From assembly GCF_019916085.1 (NCBI RefSeq), contig NZ_CP049834.1, positions 1,348,501 to 1,412,500 of the forward strand: DNA of 64,000 bases. The letters run 5' to 3'. The translations under genes and the position numbers were made by a program. Position 1 is the first letter of the stretch. Each line of letters begins with the position of its first letter. Positions 3,211 to 51,993 of this stretch are shown piece after piece. This DNA is from Aquirufa lenticrescens (GTDB taxonomy: Bacteria; Bacteroidota; Bacteroidia; Cytophagales; Spirosomataceae). The notes under the pieces were generated by a model. It was given only the letters and a program-made list of their open reading frames with translations, was not told the DNA's origin and made no database searches.

Positions 3211-3591
3211 TCAGGGCAATCCTTGCTGAAAGGTAATTTCAGTCGTTAATCCCATCGCACTGAAACGAAAAGCCATGGTGCGTGCTTGAGACGGATTTGT
3301 AATTTTATCACAATGAGGGCCTTTTTCCAAAAAATACACGTAATATTCCTGGTTTCGGTCCGCTAATTGTTGAATGTCGGGCTTTCCTAGGATGTCTTCC
3401 AAATCATTGGAGCTAACCCCCTTCCATGTCATTTTATGCGTTTTAAGCCAGTCGATCTGCTTTTCTCTCGTTCCACCACAACTTCCGCGGTCCTTTTTAA
3501 AGCTTTCTACATCAAATCCAGTCAAATCAGGTTGATTTGTACACGAAACGGAGATCAAAAATAAGAGGGCAAACGCTGTCAGTATTCTCAT
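3211..3591 (-). CDS. Small lipoprotein, BamE/SmpA-like fold possible
   Basis: A 126-residue protein with a type II signal peptide; the predicted lipidated cysteine is residue 17 in 'LISVSC', a somewhat weak lipobox. The C-terminal half ('LEDILGKPDIQQL', an aromatic strand 'YYVYFLEKG', then 'MAFRFSAMGLTTEITF') recalls the alternating pattern of small outer-membrane SmpA/BamE-type domains, in which a helix is followed by a short antiparallel sheet. That resemblance is by eye only. It lies 14 bases upstream of the UPF0311 gene on the same strand and is divergent from glycerate kinase, so its promoter probably sits in the 50-bp gap with that gene. Confidence 0.6.
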   Translation of the reverse strand: MRILTAFALLFLISVSCTNQPDLTGFDVESFKKDRGSCGGTREKQIDWLKTHKMTWKGVSSNDLEDILGKPDIQQLADRNQEYYVYFLEKGPHCDKITNPSQARTMAFRFSAMGLTTEITFQQGLP

Positions 3592-3640
3592 ACCTTAAAT
3601 TTAAGGAATTGTGGCTAAATTGCGGCATAAATCCATCGCT

Positions 3641-4741
3641 GTGCATATTTTAATCTCTCCTGATAAGTTCAAAGGCTCTCTTTCTGCCTCGCAAGTATGC
3701 GAAGCGCTTGAAAAAGGGATTAAAAAACGTCGTCCCAAAACCGTTTTCACCACCCTCCCCCTTGCTGATGGCGGAGAAGGCACTCTGGAAGTGATTCAAC
3801 AATTGCACGGCGGAACGTGGATTTCAGTGGACACCTTTGACCCGTTGATGTGTCCTATTCAGGCAGATTATTTGTGGTTAGCGGATCAAAAAACGGCCTA
3901 CATCGAAATGGCTCGGGCTTCTGGGCTCGCCTTATTGTCCGTAAAGGAGCGCAATCCACTTAAAACCTCGACTTTCGGAACGGGAGTGCTGATCGCTGAT
4001 GCGTTAAAACGCGGCGCCTCTCAAATCATCCTCACTATCGGCGGCTCTGCTACGAATGATGCGGGAATTGGAATGGCTGCTGCATTAGGTTGGACCTTTT
4101 TGGATGCAGAAGGGGCTGCAGTTCAACCTGTCGGCGAAAATCTAGTTAAAATCGCGTCTATAGGAAGTCCATCGGCCGTAGATTGTTCTTTCACGGTCGT
4201 TACAGACGTAACTAACCCACTCGCTGGGAGCGATGGAGCAGCCCATGTTTTCGCTGCTCAAAAAGGCGCCACTGTCACAGTAATTAAACAGTTAGACAAA
4301 GGTCTAAACAACATAGCTTCCTTCTTCGGATCCATCGCCTCAGAACCCGGAGCGGGTGCCGCAGGTGGGCTTGGAGCAGGCGCCCGTTATTTCCTAAACG
4401 CTAAAATCGTTGCTGGCTCTAGCTGGATAATGGACAAAGTCCACTTTAACCGCGCCCTTTTAAAAGCAGATTTCATTATCACTGGCGAAGGCAAGATCGA
4501 TTCCTCTACCTGGGGAGGCAAAGTGGTTTCTGAAGTCGTAAAACGTTGCGATAAAGTTTTCAAGCAAACAATTTTGGTCTCAGGGGCCTTTGAAAGTTCT
4601 GCTAACTTCCCTCTCTTTTTGGACGAAAATGACGTGTTTACGATTGCGTCCCGAGCGACAGATGCAGCGGATTCAATCGCGAGGGCCGCTGAGATTTTAG
4701 AGCAAATTGGGGAAGAGATTGCGTTAAAGTATTTGAACTAA
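3641..4741 (+). CDS. Glycerate 2-kinase (GarK/GlxK family)
   Basis: The 366-residue protein belongs to the class II glycerate kinase family, which phosphorylates D-glycerate with ATP. Family marks are the N-terminal 'ILISPDKFKGSLSA', 'PLADGGEGT' near residue 46, 'GTGVLIADAL', 'GGSATNDAGIGMA' and 'ITGEGKID'. I place the start at GTG 3641, giving 'MHILISPDKFKGSL', which matches the usual family N terminus. An in-frame GTG at 3611 would add ten poorly conserved residues and cannot be excluded. Its 3' end overlaps the convergent aminotransferase gene by 18 bases. The serC-like gene nearby uses glycerate-derived metabolites, but no direct operon link exists. Confidence 0.88.
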   Translation: MHILISPDKFKGSLSASQVCEALEKGIKKRRPKTVFTTLPLADGGEGTLEVIQQLHGGTWISVDTFDPLMCPIQADYLWLADQKTAYIEMARASGLALLSVKERNPLKTSTFGTGVLIADALKRGASQIILTIGGSATNDAGIGMAAALGWTFLDAEGAAVQPVGENLVKIASIGSPSAVDCSFTVVTDVTNPLAGSDGAAHVFAAQKGATVTVIKQLDKGLNNIASFFGSIASEPGAGAAGGLGAGARYFLNAKIVAGSSWIMDKVHFNRALLKADFIITGEGKIDSSTWGGKVVSEVVKRCDKVFKQTILVSGAFESSANFPLFLDENDVFTIASRATDAADSIARAAEILEQIGEEIALKYLN

Positions 4742-38212: not shown

Positions 38213-39416
38213 TATTGTAGCCTTATTTTTCGGCCTTCTTCTACCTGCTTTCAACTCGAATGCACAATGGTGGAAGAAGGCGGATGAGGCAGAGAAGGAG
38301 CGTTCCAAAGGAATGCTGTTGCTCACCACCGAAGTTCAGACGGAGGCCACCGTGGCCATTAACCAGATGTATAACTTCCATTTCCCGGAAGCTGAACGCG
38401 AATTCAATTATTTAAAGATCAAATACCCCCAGCATCCGCTGCCTGATTTTCTTTTGGGCCTCATGCAATGGTGGAAAATCGTGCCTAACACAAAGAATGA
38501 AGTCTTTGACGATCGTTTGATTGAATATATGGACCAAAGTATCGAAAAGGCCGAAAAGATTTACGACGAAACCGAAAACCCAGAAGCCGCCTTCTTCATG
38601 GCCGCCGCTTACGGCTTCAAAGGCCGCCTGCACGCAGAACGCAAGCACTGGACGCGCGCGACTTTGGCCGCTAAAAACGCCCTCAAATACCTCGAATATT
38701 CTCGCAACTTCGCTGATTTCAGCCCGGAATTGATGTTCGGCGATGGCCTGTATAACTACTATTACTTCTTCATTAAGCAGAATTTTCCCCTTTTGCGCCC
38801 TGTCTTATGGCTTTTCCCAAAGGCAGACAAATCGCAAGGGATTGCTCAATTAGAGAAGGTAAGCTATCAAGCTTTCTACACCCGGACCGAAGCCCGCTAC
38901 TTCCTATTGCAGATTTACGGCATCGAAAATATGAACGAGAAGGCCTACGGAATGGCCAAATACACCTCCGAAACCTTTCCAGACAATCCTTATTTCCACC
39001 GTGCCTATGCCCGCTCGGCCTATATGAATGGAAATATTCAGGAAGCCACCTCGCTTTGTAAGGAAATCTTGCGCCGCATCGAACAGCACCAAATAGGCTA
39101 CGAAGGAACCTCAGGTCGCTATGCAAGTTATATTTTAGGCTATTACGCCTTGTATGTGAACCGCGATCACGCGGATGCGATGCGCTATTTCAAGCAGTGC
39201 ATGGCCTTCACGAAGGAGACAGACGCTACCGATTCTGGTTACTATTGGGCCTCCGTCTTAGGATTAGCCCGCATTTCCTATCAACAACAGCATTACGACG
39301 AAGCCGTCGACTTCTGCAAAGAAGTATTAGAAAGTGCAGATAAAAAGTCCCCTCAACACACCGAGGCAAAGAAATTGCTTTCAGAATCTAAGAAAGCTAG
39401 ACGCAAAAAACGATAA
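38184..39416 (+). CDS. Exported TPR-type protein
   Basis: A 410-residue protein with a signal peptide (hydrophobic residues 8-24, cleavage near 'SNAQWW'). The rest is mostly helical with TPR-like pairs such as 'FHFPEAEREFNYLKIKYPQHP' (residues 63-83, partly quoted), 'AYGMAKYTSETFPDNPYFHRA', and 'QQQHYDEAVDFCKEVLE' at the end, before a basic tail 'KKARRKKR'. It likely works in the periplasm or outer membrane as a scaffold. It overlaps rng by 29 bases and rsmG begins 1 base after its stop, giving a rng-TPR-rsmG operon. No named family is recognised. Confidence 0.82.
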   Translation: MEIKLRYHLSIVALFFGLLLPAFNSNAQWWKKADEAEKERSKGMLLLTTEVQTEATVAINQMYNFHFPEAEREFNYLKIKYPQHPLPDFLLGLMQWWKIVPNTKNEVFDDRLIEYMDQSIEKAEKIYDETENPEAAFFMAAAYGFKGRLHAERKHWTRATLAAKNALKYLEYSRNFADFSPELMFGDGLYNYYYFFIKQNFPLLRPVLWLFPKADKSQGIAQLEKVSYQAFYTRTEARYFLLQIYGIENMNEKAYGMAKYTSETFPDNPYFHRAYARSAYMNGNIQEATSLCKEILRRIEQHQIGYEGTSGRYASYILGYYALYVNRDHADAMRYFKQCMAFTKETDATDSGYYWASVLGLARISYQQQHYDEAVDFCKEVLESADKKSPQHTEAKKLLSESKKARRKKR

Positions 39417-39417
39417 C

Positions 39418-40044
39418 ATGAAAGCAGCCATCATCAAACAGTATTTCCCCTCCATCACCGAGCAGCAATTAGCTCAATTCGAGCAGCTGTTCCCCTTGTA
39501 CACGGAGTGGAATGAGAAAATCAATGTCATTTCCCGCAAAGACATTGATAATTTGATGCTGCACCACGTATTACACTCCTTAGCGATCGCCAAATTTGTC
39601 GATTTCAAACCAGGCACCGAAATCTTGGACGTAGGCACCGGCGGCGGCTTCCCGGGCATCCCTTTAGCCATCCTATTCCCCGAGGTAAATTTCCATTTAG
39701 TGGATAGCATCGGTAAGAAGATCAAAGTAGTTCAAGGCGTCGCAGAAGCCCTAGGATTGAAAAATGTCCAAGCCACTCACGGTCGTGCCGAAGATGTGGA
39801 CGGCGAATTTGAATTCGTTGTATCTCGCGCGGTGACGCGTCTGCTGCCTTTCTTCGGTTGGGTGAAGAATAAGATTAGCCTTAACAGCTACCATGATGTG
39901 AAGAATGGCCTGCTTTGCCTAAAAGGCGGAGATTTACAAGAGGAATTGCAGGAATTTGGAAGAAAGCACAAGGTCTATCATATTTCCAAAAGCTTCAAGG
40001 AAGACTTCTTTGAGACGAAGAAGTTAGTGCATGTGCCGCTGTAG
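39418..40044 (+). CDS. rsmG: 16S rRNA (guanine-527-N7) methyltransferase RsmG
   Basis: A 208-residue SAM-dependent methyltransferase (GidB). The SAM-binding motif is 'DVGTGGGFPGIPLAI' at about 69-83, preceded by 'HHVLHSLAIA', and 'VVSRAVTRL' is the motif IV region. I start at ATG 39418, 1 base after the preceding stop, because the longer frame overlaps that gene and adds no conserved residues. Loss of this enzyme is known to give low-level streptomycin resistance. The stop TAG at 40042-40044 is immediately followed by the hairpin array 40046-40160. Confidence 0.95.
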   Translation: MKAAIIKQYFPSITEQQLAQFEQLFPLYTEWNEKINVISRKDIDNLMLHHVLHSLAIAKFVDFKPGTEILDVGTGGGFPGIPLAILFPEVNFHLVDSIGKKIKVVQGVAEALGLKNVQATHGRAEDVDGEFEFVVSRAVTRLLPFFGWVKNKISLNSYHDVKNGLLCLKGGDLQEELQEFGRKHKVYHISKSFKEDFFETKKLVHVPL

Positions 40045-40045
40045 G

Positions 40046-40160
40046 CGCAGTCACGACTGCGTCGTTTAGTCGCCCTGCGGACTTAGTCATCGCTACGCGA
40101 TTTAGTCGACGCGTTGCGCCTTGGTCACGACTGCGTCGCTCAGTCCGTAGGGATTAAGTC
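40046..40160 (-). repeat. GNA mini-hairpin array A
   Basis: Five to six units of about 19 bases. Each has a linker TTAGTC (or CAGTC/GGTC) and a short self-complementary stretch: ACGAC-TGC-GTCGT (40053-40065), GCCC-TGC-GGAC, ATCGC-TAC-GCGAT (40089-40101), a GACGCG/TGCGCC unit, and ACGAC-TGC-GTCG again. Read on the minus strand the linkers are GACTAA-like and most triloops are GNA. Stems differ in sequence but remain paired. The array starts 1 base after the rsmG stop. Confidence 0.85.
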
Positions 40161-40199
40161 CAATATAGCCCTGAGGTGCTCCAATGGCACAAATGAGTT

Positions 40200-40311
40200 G
40201 AAATACTTTCAATGGACTAAATGGCATTTTCGCGTATTGACACATTCTGTCAATATCTGAAAAGTCGCCTGAGTGCTTCGAAGTTTATTTCACACCTTAT
40301 TGGGTTTGGGG
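40200..40311 (+). repeat. 112-bp repeat, copy L of an inverted pair
   Basis: This segment matches the reverse complement of 44498-44609 with about 10 mismatches by eye. It contains the palindromic hairpin at 40223-40269 and continues with a conserved TTCGAAGTTTATTTCACA block. No gene lies in 40045-40405, a 361-bp gap between convergent genes, apart from these repeats. Confidence 0.88.
40223..40269 (+). repeat. REP-like palindrome, copy 1
   Basis: Inner arms TATTGACA / TGTCAATA (40235-40255) surround CATTC. Outer arms GGCATTTTC / GAAAAGTCGCC pair after a 3-base internal loop. It lies between convergent rsmG and the LytTR gene. Confidence 0.88.
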
Positions 40312-40405
40312 CTCGAAGAGGCACAATTACTATAATTCGCCGCAGGCGATTCCGACTTTATGCTTTGTGCTTTATTCTTTGTGCTTTGGCAAAGCCGCTC
40401 CGCGG

Positions 40406-44404: not shown

Positions 44405-44497
44405 ATTTCAAATTTCAAAGAGCAAAGCTCAAAGTTCAAAAGTGGCATCGCCGCAGGCGATTTTTAGCGTGGATTTTGTCGAATCTTCCTCTCCGGC

Positions 44498-44609
44498 CCC
44501 CAAACCCAATAAAGTGTGAAATAAACTTCGAGGCACTCAGGCGACATTCCAGGTATTGACAGAATTTGTCAATACGCGAAAAAGCCATTTAGTGCCTTGA
44601 AAGTATTTT
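44498..44609 (-). repeat. 112-bp repeat, copy R of an inverted pair
   Basis: Reverse-complement copy of 40200-40311, about 90% identical. The gene-free stretch 44405-44823 holds this repeat, a perfect hairpin ATCGCC-GCA-GGCGAT near 44446-44461, and hairpin array B. Confidence 0.88.
44540..44586 (-). repeat. REP-like palindrome, copy 2
   Basis: Inner arms GTATTGACA / TGTCAATAC (44553-44575) around GAATT, the longest perfect inner stem of the five copies. Outer arms GACATTCC / GAAAAAGCC are partly paired. It lies between convergent ftsB and gpmI. Confidence 0.9.
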
Positions 44610-44648
44610 AACCATTTAGTGCCCTAGGAGCGCTTCAAGGCCCTTTCG

Positions 44649-44793
44649 GACTAAGGCGTCGTAGTTGCGACTAAGCCCCGTAGGGGCGACTAAATTGCGA
44701 AGCAATGACTAAGCCGAAGGCGACTAGATTGCGTAGCGATGACTCCGACGCAGTCGGCATGACTAAGCCCGCAGGGCGACTTCTAGTCGACTT
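44649..44793 (+). repeat. GNA mini-hairpin array B
   Basis: GACTAA-type linkers at 44649, 44669, 44688, 44707, 44722, 44741, 44761 and 44778 separate short hairpins. Perfect ones are GCCCC-GTA-GGGGC, ATTGC-GAA-GCAAT, GCC-GAA-GGC, CCGAC-GCA-GTCGG and GCCC-GCA-GGGC; ATTGC-GTA-GCGAT has one wobble. All these triloops are GNA on the plus strand. Spacing is mostly 15-20 bases. This is the clearest of the three arrays. Confidence 0.92.
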
Positions 44794-44795
44794 AT

Positions 44796-44828
44796 TTTAA
44801 ATCGAAAAGCGGAGCTTTTCAATTTAAA
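44796..44828. terminator. Hairpin at the gpmI stop, probable terminator
   Basis: TTTAAAT-GAAAAGC pairs with GCTTTTC-ATTTAAA around a GGA loop, with one mismatch. It overlaps the gpmI stop codon (44824-44826). A clear T-run is lacking, so termination efficiency is uncertain. Confidence 0.6.
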
Positions 44829-46344
44829 ACAATGCCACCCCCGTCATCTCTTTCGGTTGAGCCACGCCCATCATCTTCAAGATCGTAGGAGACACATCAC
44901 CTAGTTTACCATCGCGAAGCGTTGGTTTGAAGTCGTTGTCTACTAAAATACATGGAACCAAGTTTGTTGAGTGTGCCGTGTTTGGTGAGCCGTCTTCGTT
45001 CATCATAACGTCCGCGTTACCGTGGTCGGCGATGATGATGAAGGAATAGCCGTGGGCTAGACCAGCTGTAACTACTGCCTCAGCGCAAGCGTCTACCGTT
45101 TCGACTGCTTTAACTACTGCAGAGAAAACGCCTGTGTGGCCTACCATGTCAGGATTAGCAAAGTTTAAGCAGACGAAGTCTACCTCCTCTTTTTCTAATT
45201 CTGGGATCAACGCATCGCGAAGATCTGCGGCAGACATTTCGGGTTGAAGATCGTAGGTGGCGACTTTTGGGGAGTTGCGTAGGATGTTTTGTTGTCCTTC
45301 AAAAAGCGCCTCGCGGCCACCAGAGAAAAAGAACGTAACGTGTGGATATTTTTCGGTTTCGGCGATGCGAATTTGTTTTTTACCCGCGCCCTCTAGGACC
45401 TCGCCCATCGTCATTGGAAGGTTAGAGTCGTTGAAGATCACGTGGACGTTTTGGAATTCTTTATCGTATTCCGTCATCGTCAAGTAGTACAAATTCAATT
45501 TGTGCATACCCTCTTCAGAAAAATCACGCTGCGTTAAAGCCTGTGTGATCTCGCGGCCGCGGTCGGTGCGGAAGTTGAAGCAGATTACTAAGTCGCCCTC
45601 TTGGATATTGCCAACTGGAGCACCTGAAGCATCGGTCATGATGATTGGGTGGATGAATTCGTCCGTTACACCAGCCGCGTAGCTTTCTTCGATAGATTTC
45701 AACACATCGGAAGAAGGAGTTCCTTCGCCGTTAACCATCGCTTTGTAGGCCAAAGCCACCCGCTCCCAGCGATTATCGCGGTCCATCGCGTAGTAACGAC
45801 CCGTTACTGAGGCGATTTGCGTGTTGGTTTTTAAGGTGTGTTGGTATAAATCGGTCATGAATTTCAGACCTGATTTGGGATCCGTATCGCGGCCATCCGT
45901 GAAAGCATGGACGAAAACTTTGCCCAAACCTGCCTCTGACGCCGTCGAAAGCAAGGATTTCAAGTGCTCGATGTGCGCGTGAACGCCACCATCGGACACA
46001 AGACCCATGAAGTGGACGGACTTGTTATTAGCTTTAGCGTAGTCGAATGCTTTCGCTAATTCAGGCTCCTGGCCCAAGGTATTTTCAGTGACTGCTTTGT
46101 TGATGCGAACGAGGTTTTGGTAGACCACGCGGCCAGCCCCTAAGTTCATGTGGCCCACTTCCGAGTTGCCCATTTGGCCCTCTGGTAAGCCTACTGCTAA
46201 ACCGGATGCTTCTAATTTTGAGTGCGCATATTTGCCGTAAAGCGAAGAAATAAATGGCGTTTTGGCCGCGTCGATTGCGGAAACTTTGGGGTTTGTTGCG
46301 ATGCCCCAGCCATCTAAGATCATTAAAACTACTTTCTTATCCAT
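44824..46344 (-). CDS. gpmI: 2,3-bisphosphoglycerate-independent phosphoglycerate mutase
   Basis: A 506-residue Mn-dependent mutase interconverting 3- and 2-phosphoglycerate, one step before enolase. The metal aspartate is D11 in 'ILDGWG', the phosphoserine nucleophile S61 in 'GQMGNSEVGH', and further ligands are in 'ADHGNADVM' and 'GHTGVFSA'. Length matches the family (about 510). It converges on eno-ftsB across the repeat-filled gap. A cofactor-dependent GpmA is not in the window, so this may be the main enzyme. Confidence 0.97.
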   Translation of the reverse strand: MDKKVVLMILDGWGIATNPKVSAIDAAKTPFISSLYGKYAHSKLEASGLAVGLPEGQMGNSEVGHMNLGAGRVVYQNLVRINKAVTENTLGQEPELAKAFDYAKANNKSVHFMGLVSDGGVHAHIEHLKSLLSTASEAGLGKVFVHAFTDGRDTDPKSGLKFMTDLYQHTLKTNTQIASVTGRYYAMDRDNRWERVALAYKAMVNGEGTPSSDVLKSIEESYAAGVTDEFIHPIIMTDASGAPVGNIQEGDLVICFNFRTDRGREITQALTQRDFSEEGMHKLNLYYLTMTEYDKEFQNVHVIFNDSNLPMTMGEVLEGAGKKQIRIAETEKYPHVTFFFSGGREALFEGQQNILRNSPKVATYDLQPEMSAADLRDALIPELEKEEVDFVCLNFANPDMVGHTGVFSAVVKAVETVDACAEAVVTAGLAHGYSFIIIADHGNADVMMNEDGSPNTAHSTNLVPCILVDNDFKPTLRDGKLGDVSPTILKMMGVAQPKEMTGVALF

Positions 46345-47100: not shown

Positions 47101-47490
47101 ATGTCAACCTCCCGCCGCGATTTCATCGCCCTAGCCTCGACCTTGCCCTTTGTGGCATCAGCTGAACCTTCAACGAAAATGACCTTTATACATCATGTGT
47201 TGTTTTGGGCCAAAAACCCAACCTCCACCACCGAAACCGATCAACTCTACCGCGCCCTAAAAACGTTAGGCACCCTCCCGATGATAGCCTCAGCCCACGT
47301 AGGCAAGCCCATCGTCACCGATTTTGACAAATCCGTAACAGAAGCAAGTTACACCTTTTCGGTAGTCCTTGTTTTCGACAGCGCCGAAAAAGAGAAAGAA
47401 TACCTCTACCACCCACTCCACAAGAAGTTCATTCAGGATAACATGCACCTTTGGGGAAAAGTTCAGGTGATTGATTCGGAGGCTTTGTAG
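47101..47490 (+). CDS. Dabb (stress-responsive A/B barrel) protein with TAT-like signal
   Basis: A 129-residue protein. The N terminus 'STSRRDFIALASTLPFVASA' is a twin-arginine-type signal. The rest is a single dimeric alpha/beta barrel (Dabb) domain: 'FIHHVLFWAKNP', 'SAHVGKPI', 'YTFSVVLVFDSAEKEKEY' and 'HPLHKKFIQDNMHLWGKVQVID'. Function of exported Dabb proteins is unknown. The stop TAG (47488-47490) is the first triplet of hairpin array C, so the gene runs straight into the repeat. Confidence 0.88.
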   Translation: MSTSRRDFIALASTLPFVASAEPSTKMTFIHHVLFWAKNPTSTTETDQLYRALKTLGTLPMIASAHVGKPIVTDFDKSVTEASYTFSVVLVFDSAEKEKEYLYHPLHKKFIQDNMHLWGKVQVIDSEAL

Positions 47491-47566
47491 TCGCCTTCGG
47501 CTTAGTCATCGCTTCGCGATTTAGTCGTCACGCTTCGCTTAGTCGCCTTGCGGACTTAGTCAGTGG
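47488..47566 (-). repeat. GNA mini-hairpin array C
   Basis: Four units: GCC-TTC-GGC, ATCGC-TTC-GCGAT, a CACGC-TTC-GCTT unit and GCCT-TGC-GGAC, separated by TTAGTC linkers. Read on the minus strand they are GACTAA linkers with GNA loops, as in array B. The array begins in the stop codon of the Dabb gene and ends just before the stop of the coiled-coil gene. Confidence 0.88.
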
Positions 47567-51945: not shown

Positions 51946-51993
51946 GGCGACTTTTCAGATATTGACAGATTTTGTCAATAGTAGAAATTGTCG
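51946..51993 (-). repeat. REP-like palindrome, copy 4
   Basis: Inner arms TATTGACA / TGTCAATA (51960-51980) around GATTT. The outer arm GGCGACTTTTCAG is conserved, while the other side (GTAGAAATTGTCG) pairs with a few mismatches. Between convergent genes; same orientation as copy 2. Confidence 0.87.

Follow-up and report, generated by a model that had tools for sequence, protein, structure and literature searches.

Tandem GACTAA-linked mini-hairpin arrays at gene edges in one clade of Aquirufa: a candidate REP-like DNA repeat

Tandem arrays of DNA mini-hairpins joined by the linker GACTAA lie at gene edges in ten genomes, that of Aquirufa lenticrescens among them, which form one clade of a single genus. 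The explanation that we favour, tentatively, is a lineage-specific, REP-like tandem repeat that acts as DNA, the symmetry of its stems being kept by template switching at hairpins, by selection, or by both. "The window" below is the whole stretch of A. lenticrescens DNA that was analysed, 64,000 nucleotides in length.

The array with which the analysis began (array 2; 44649-44793, + strand, in GACTAA orientation) consists of an imperfect first unit (44655-44668) followed by six hairpins, and its terminal letters are GACTTCTAGTCGACT. Exact GACTAA linkers start at 44649, 44669, 44688, 44707 and 44761 (n = 5), and at least three variant linkers occur (GACTAG at 44722, GACTCC at 44741 and GACTTC at 44778); the tandem mini-hairpin array described in the original prediction is thus real. 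Its hairpins read GCCCC-GTA-GGGGC (44675-44687), ATTGC-GAA-GCAAT (44694-44706), GCC-GAA-GGC (44713-44721), ATTGC-GTA-GCGAT with one mismatch (44728-44740), CCGAC-GCA-GTCGG (44745-44757) and GCCC-GCA-GGGC (44767-44777), the second containing the GCGAAGC core that had been claimed for one unit. The window holds two additional arrays, both on the - strand and therefore reading TTAGTC on the + strand. Array 1 (40048-40145; hairpins 40053-40065, 40072-40082, 40089-40101, 40108-40120 and 40127-40139) starts 3 nt past the TAG stop (40042-40044) of an ORF at 39334-40044. In array 3 (47488-47561; hairpins 47493-47501, 47508-47520, 47530-47538 and 47545-47554), the first TAGTC (47488-47492) contains the TAG stop of an ORF at 47101-47490. 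Folded as RNA, the segment 44630-44840 gave z-scores of -2.53 (+ strand) and -3.51 (- strand). No Rfam family matched within the window at the gathering cut-off, and a known RNA family was set aside as the identity of the arrays.

GACTAA by itself occurs in the window about as often as chance would have it (30 matches versus 25.5). Across the whole genome (2,505,188 bases, one contig), the pattern GACT-N5-9-CGNAG-N4-8-GACT, which combines hairpin and linker, had 73 matches versus 6 for the reversed control, about five of the 73 not resembling units, and this marks the units as a true repeat class; examined with their flanks, the matches fall in about two dozen clusters. Each unit comprises GACTAA and a mini-hairpin with a stem of 3-5 bp (consensus mostly RYNRC), a GNA loop and a C-G closing pair, the closing pair and the outer purine-pyrimidine pair being constant across units. 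Among 276 units parsed in stretches of the A. lenticrescens genome (G000) and of G019, the hairpin was 13 bases long in 178, nine in 47 and eleven in 19, with other lengths in the rest. The main period is 19 bp, and periods of 17 and 15 occur as well. The two letters that follow GACT were AA in 234 of these units, AG in 21, GA in 10, CA in 9 and CG in 2.

As originally predicted, the stems vary and yet stay paired. When every 13-base segment between GACTNR and GACT was taken from arrays of five genomes, a test that is independent of the loop, 357 of 404 segments were perfect palindromes, with 29 different stems. By contrast, re-dealing the 3' arms among the units gave a mean of 50.0 perfect palindromes and at most 77 in 1000 deals, and with the commonest stem removed 247 of 294 were perfect versus a re-dealt mean of 24.4. 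Two outcomes had been named in advance as counting against the prediction, namely units of fixed sequence and hairpins at the rate of shuffled DNA, and neither was found. Loop and linker strand go together, since the loops of these 404 units, read on the GACTAA strand, were GNA in 296 and TNC in 13; no GNA loop was seen in 108, and because the arrays had been picked by the CGNAG pattern the loop counts carry some selection. In a set of 566 units, from which any with more than one mismatch had been removed, C-G closed the loop in 550 and the loops ranked GAA (244), GCA (131), GTA (71) and GGA (8), with others that include AAA (30), ACA (19) and AAC (14). In keeping with the GTA, GAA and GCA first noticed, the loops are thus mainly GNA, closed by C-G. 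Single stem mismatches on the GACTAA strand were GT or TG in 22 cases, AC or CA in 11 and other in 16, and this excess of G.T leans slightly toward the GACTAA strand as the folded one. The C-G closing pair matters for DNA mini-hairpins. As to the loop, GAA mini-hairpins melt 6 °C above GTA ones (Yoshizawa 1997, as quoted in the relevant part of PMC6479982).

Comparison between species shows that array loci persist, whereas the units within them undergo duplication, loss and exchange. When arrays were grouped by how alike their flanks are, 131 of the 158 fell into 39 orthologous groups, with flanks 73-98% identical (median 88.5%). Unit order differs among orthologous arrays and multi-unit duplications are present, as at locus L151, where a three-unit block stands three times over, and at L039. 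Between two genes that we take, from their sequence motifs, to be secA and proB (the names enolase, phosphoglycerate mutase and rsmG were assigned to other genes in the same manner), arrays occur in G000, G007, G014, G021 and G027 and remnants in G002 and G012, with AAAGTTC-type heptamers instead of an array in G019 and G023. When 535 pairs of orthologous units were aligned, 300 had the same stem, 51 had changed on one side of one stem pair, 52 differed by one compensated pair, 111 only by two or more compensated pairs and 21 in other ways; because the unit parser allowed at most one mismatch, the number of one-sided double changes is too low, and the 111 multiply compensated pairs may be swaps or misalignments.

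The original prediction had taken the co-change of stems as a product of selection on structure. The covariation that it called for is there in so far as stems vary with pairing kept; the attribution to selection is not established, since single one-sided changes between orthologous units were about as common as compensated ones. Pairing alone does not separate the possible causes, because quasipalindrome template switching, that is, hairpin-templated repair, gives the same pattern as selection. According to the parts of PMC7202029, PMC3820800 and PMC8604942 drawn on here, such switching perfects imperfect inverted repeats, and it would therefore keep stems paired without selection, although selection on RNA or DNA structure would be equally able to do so. 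A natural series of orthologous arrays like this one, rich in compensated stem changes, gives an unusual opportunity to tell selection on structure apart from mutation templated by hairpins.

The DNA beside the arrays holds further palindromes. A gene-end palindrome at 44797-44831 (arms of 16 bp, mismatched once; GGA loop as read on the + strand) sits between array 2 and the stop of the gene at 44824-46344, its outer arm overlapping that stop. In 104 intergenic stretches beside arrays, hairpins with triloops and arms of at least 9 numbered 27 versus 3.2 expected, and no such excess was seen in the window as a whole (3 versus 2.2 expected). Triloop palindromes that run into gene stops suit template switching; loops of 4, 5 and 6 were in excess too in the same stretches (13, 27 and 10 versus 4.0, 3.8 and 3.2 expected), and many of these are probably terminators. 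Long triloop palindromes whose outer arm is the 3' end of a gene including its stop were also seen at L038, L044, L047, L136, L142, L155 and L184. Separate from the hairpin array, a dispersed element at 44475-44648 contains a TTGACA..TGTCAA palindrome (44553-44575); a second copy, 87% identical over 154 bases, lies at 40168-40321 (G000:C1:1388668-1388821) and adjoins array 1. The element was also seen at 51960-51980 of the window and has nine blastn matches in its own genome, several adjoining arrays. Short degenerate heptamer runs (CTTTGTG, TCAAAGA) likewise adjoin arrays, at 40356-40388 and 44405-44440. At L039, a gene of the PF05635 four-helix-bundle family (23S rRNA IVP family) stands between TTAGTC and GACTAA arrays (3496-3865; G000:C1:1021341-1021646); the family has three copies in the genome, of which this one was seen between arrays, and it was dismissed as an array partner. 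A CTCCG- or CTTCG-like lead precedes 17 of 155 arrays only, so that a common leader was rejected as part of the arrays, and neither leader nor tail was found.

Placement was scored for 155 arrays in stretches of five genomes, which include most but not all of the listed matches of G007, G012 and G021, with our own gene finder trained on the window and the fetched stretches. The gene finder is crude (it dropped the ORF at 39334-40044, so that array 1 was mis-scored), and because the five genomes share orthologous loci the counts are not independent. The outer end of an array, 3' on the GACTAA strand, was the end closer to a gene in 121 of the 144 arrays with both neighbours known (29:5, 18:7, 25:3, 23:4 and 26:4 by genome), and 23 broke this rule; among arrays that stood alone in their stretch, the ratio was 34 to 10. 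Of 148 arrays, 105 had a stop codon and 43 had a start codon as the gene boundary at the outer end (p = 3.6e-7 for stops against one half). In 21 arrays, tag and stop codon share letters at an offset of -2 (20 TAG, 1 TAA), and TAG is the stop codon of 60 of the 105 genes on the stop side, compared with 14 of the 62 complete genes that were called within the window. Where two arrays face each other with no gene between, their order was TTAGTC..GACTAA in 34 cases and the reverse in none, and 10 neighbouring arrays ran in the same direction.

Such placement bears on the possibility, which we regard as real though doubtful, that the arrays are RNA elements in 3' UTRs, and sometimes 5' UTRs, whose mini-hairpins would protect mRNA ends, slow exonucleases or buffer convergent read-through. 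The prevalence of stops at the outer end agrees with this, yet the 43 arrays that adjoin start codons have the same polarity. At L037 and some other loci, terminator-like hairpins with T runs stand between the two arms, which places an array arm between stop and terminator, and the RNA folding z-scores also speak for this possibility. The mRNA-sense loops at gene 3' ends, however, are TNC, and both the preference for GNA loops and the excess of G.T mismatches speak for the opposite strand; moreover, the close relatives G019 and G023 do without an array at secA-proB.

The arrays are confined to a small part of the genus. We searched 59 genomes, namely the A. lenticrescens genome, 36 congeners and 22 others of the same order, and counted arrays in ten (G000, G002, G007, G012, G014, G019, G021, G023, G027 and G030; at least 11 matches each), the remaining 49 having 0 to 6 matches and lying, as a group, at or below the reversed control. 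In a tree of 30 secA fragments the ten array genomes share one branch (support 100/100), whose sister consists of G035 and the five sampled genomes that bear TTRGACG heptamers (clade 93/90; pair 89/82). An exact 19-base-period pattern was found in G000 alone among 395 genomes of the phylum, the 394 others having none, in a sample that contained no other genus member and with a pattern to which other linkers are invisible. Phage or plasmid origin was set aside, as neither a search of viral contigs with two exact motif patterns nor a blastn search of plasmids with the array gave a match. The Y1_Tnp domain (PF01797) was found in none of the ten array genomes, several of which are 73-90% complete and three of which (G000, G012 and G019) are 96-99% complete; among the 28 array-less congeners in the 38 genus genomes searched, it was present in 12 and absent in 16. 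The twelve are G017, G020, G024, G033, G015 and seven others.

The sister clade carries a different repeat. TTRGACG triplets were found in seven of the 38 genus genomes, all seven without hairpin arrays, and the control pattern had no match. At the secA stop, the array-less G006, G011, G022 and G031 have TTAGACG/TTGGACG heptamers that start at the TAG, and G010 and G035 have other heptamers. For three of the seven TTRGACG genomes (G006, G011 and G022), 23 heptamer arrays in 20 stretches (L259-L278) were scored for placement; degenerate arrays run there from stop codons, several with the TAG of the gene in the first repeat. The TTAG end was closer to a gene in 21 of 22 arrays with both neighbours, and in the 22 that had a neighbour at the TTAG end it faced a stop 20 times, so that TTRGACG, unrelated in sequence, follows the same placement rule as the hairpin arrays. 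Because the TTAGTC-hairpin unit and TTRGACG, two unrelated units of sister clades, both start at stops, reuse the TAG of the gene and run away from it, it is conceivable, if doubtful, that tandem repeats of this genus grow outward from gene borders whatever their sequence. Seeding would then be registered on the stop codon, by short-match template switching or some enzyme, and C(GNA)G mini-hairpins would be the most evolved substrate. The placement results show that satellite-like repeats of bacteria can stand in register with stop codons, and this is relevant to the origin of intergenic DNA in compact genomes.

The fixed order of facing arms raises the alternative of a MITE- or REPIN-like mobile element, in which each TTAGTC...GACTAA pair would form a single element with inverted repeats, mobilised in trans by a hitherto unrecognised enzyme, and lone arrays would be halves. 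Ends of the form TA-GTC...GAC-TA would fit a TA target, and dispersal to about two dozen loci of one genome and limitation to one clade would be in keeping with mobility. We nevertheless think it unlikely. The loci examined had neither a common spacer nor a clean target duplication, the loci compared gave no case of a new insertion opposite a clean empty site, and Y1_Tnp, the one transposase family searched, was not found in the ten array genomes; recent movement is not evident, because array loci are mostly common to the species. Less probable still is a protein that binds the hairpin or GACTAA and organises or marks gene borders, keeping spacing and symmetry. The regular 19-bp period, the fixed linker and the constant outer and closing pairs would suit it, but unit number and kind vary freely between species at one locus, hairpin length switches between 9, 11 and 13 bases, and arrays stand at only about two dozen loci, with no candidate protein. 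Finally, the remnant of a hairpin-guided mobile element that the original prediction had offered as its last option, taken here as RAYT/HUH-guided, is very improbable: short intergenic hairpins with an unpaired tag do resemble REPs, but the tag is not GTAG and Y1_Tnp was not found in any array genome while present in 12 array-less congeners, so that Y1/RAYT-driven mobility was rejected.

Four observations suit upkeep at the DNA level better, we infer, than a fixed RNA or protein site: loop and closing pair are sequence-specific and tied to one strand, G.T mismatches lean to that strand as well, units turn over freely, and Y1_Tnp was not found in the ten array genomes. Under the favoured reading, a REP-like repeat that acts as DNA, each C(GNA)G unit would snap into a very stable DNA mini-hairpin whenever the GACTAA strand becomes single-stranded in replication or repair. 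Such hairpins would provoke polymerase slippage and template switching, so that arrays lengthen and shorten, and a switch that copies one stem arm from the other would keep stems palindromic while their sequence drifts. Since the linker carries a stop on both strands (TAG in TTAGTC, TAA in GACTAA), arrays end translation in either direction, which may be why gene edges tolerate them, and short TTAG matches at stop codons could serve as seed or register for new arrays. This account would work without any host function.

Among known repeats, the STRRs of cyanobacteria are heptamers in degenerate short tandem arrays in intergenic DNA. The TTRGACG arrays of the sister clade, with their period of 7, are of the same kind; the hairpin arrays differ, having hairpins and periods of 19, 17 and 15, mainly 19. 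The d(GCGNAGC) DNA mini-hairpins share the C-G-closed GNA triloop with the GACTAA strand and are a biophysical motif, not a repeat family. A search of open-licence literature found no printed description of a GACTAA mini-hairpin repeat. The original statement that no named repeat class has this design was nonetheless too strong, as PMC3733652, in the portions used here, describes REPs whose tag is unpaired and fixed, whose stems are short (5 bp in Thauera GTAG-1) and whose stem residues have complementary alternatives.

In those portions, GTAG and CGTC REPs resemble the arrays in being short intergenic palindromes with a constant unpaired tag, clade-patchy, in tandem clusters and inverted dimers, with sub-families that have alternative complementary stems, and in lying preferentially where convergent or unidirectional genes end; a further likeness is that the CGTC kind has no transposase partner. 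The arrays accordingly fall within the broad sense of REP (short intergenic palindromes, dispersed and clade-patchy) and form a fixed inverted pair like that of REPINs or BIMEs. They differ from REPs, as far as those portions go, in their GACTAA/TTAGTC tag, C-G-closed GNA triloop, many stem types per array, head-to-tail repetition every 19 bp, an outer end in register with TAG stops and facing arms always in one order. The GTAG superfamily, with its GTAG (GYAG/GTRG) tag and RAYT partner, does not accommodate them, as 234 of 276 linkers are GACTAA and PF01797 was not found in the array genomes. Nor does the CGTC superfamily, which in Table 1 of that paper has a CGTC tag, an 8-9 bp stem and a 4-5 nt loop, the arrays having 3-5 bp stems and 3-nt loops. 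As to MITEs, which have terminal inverted repeats and a target-site duplication, the array ends look like TA-GTC..GAC-TA, and the loci examined gave no clean empty site. BrickBuilt, a minisatellite MITE of Porphyromonas gingivalis and thus also from Bacteroidota, is, in the sections of PMC4596501 consulted, an intergenic set of tandem direct repeats with predicted stem-loops, present in several copies per genome and variable in repeat number between strains, as the arrays are in unit number. Unlike the arrays, it has a 23-nt repeat without spacers, a leader and tail and terminal inverted repeats, whereas in the arrays every unit forms a hairpin by itself and the linker stays constant. The arrays are REP-like in kind, and their tag, loop and stop-codon register set them apart from both REPs and BrickBuilt.
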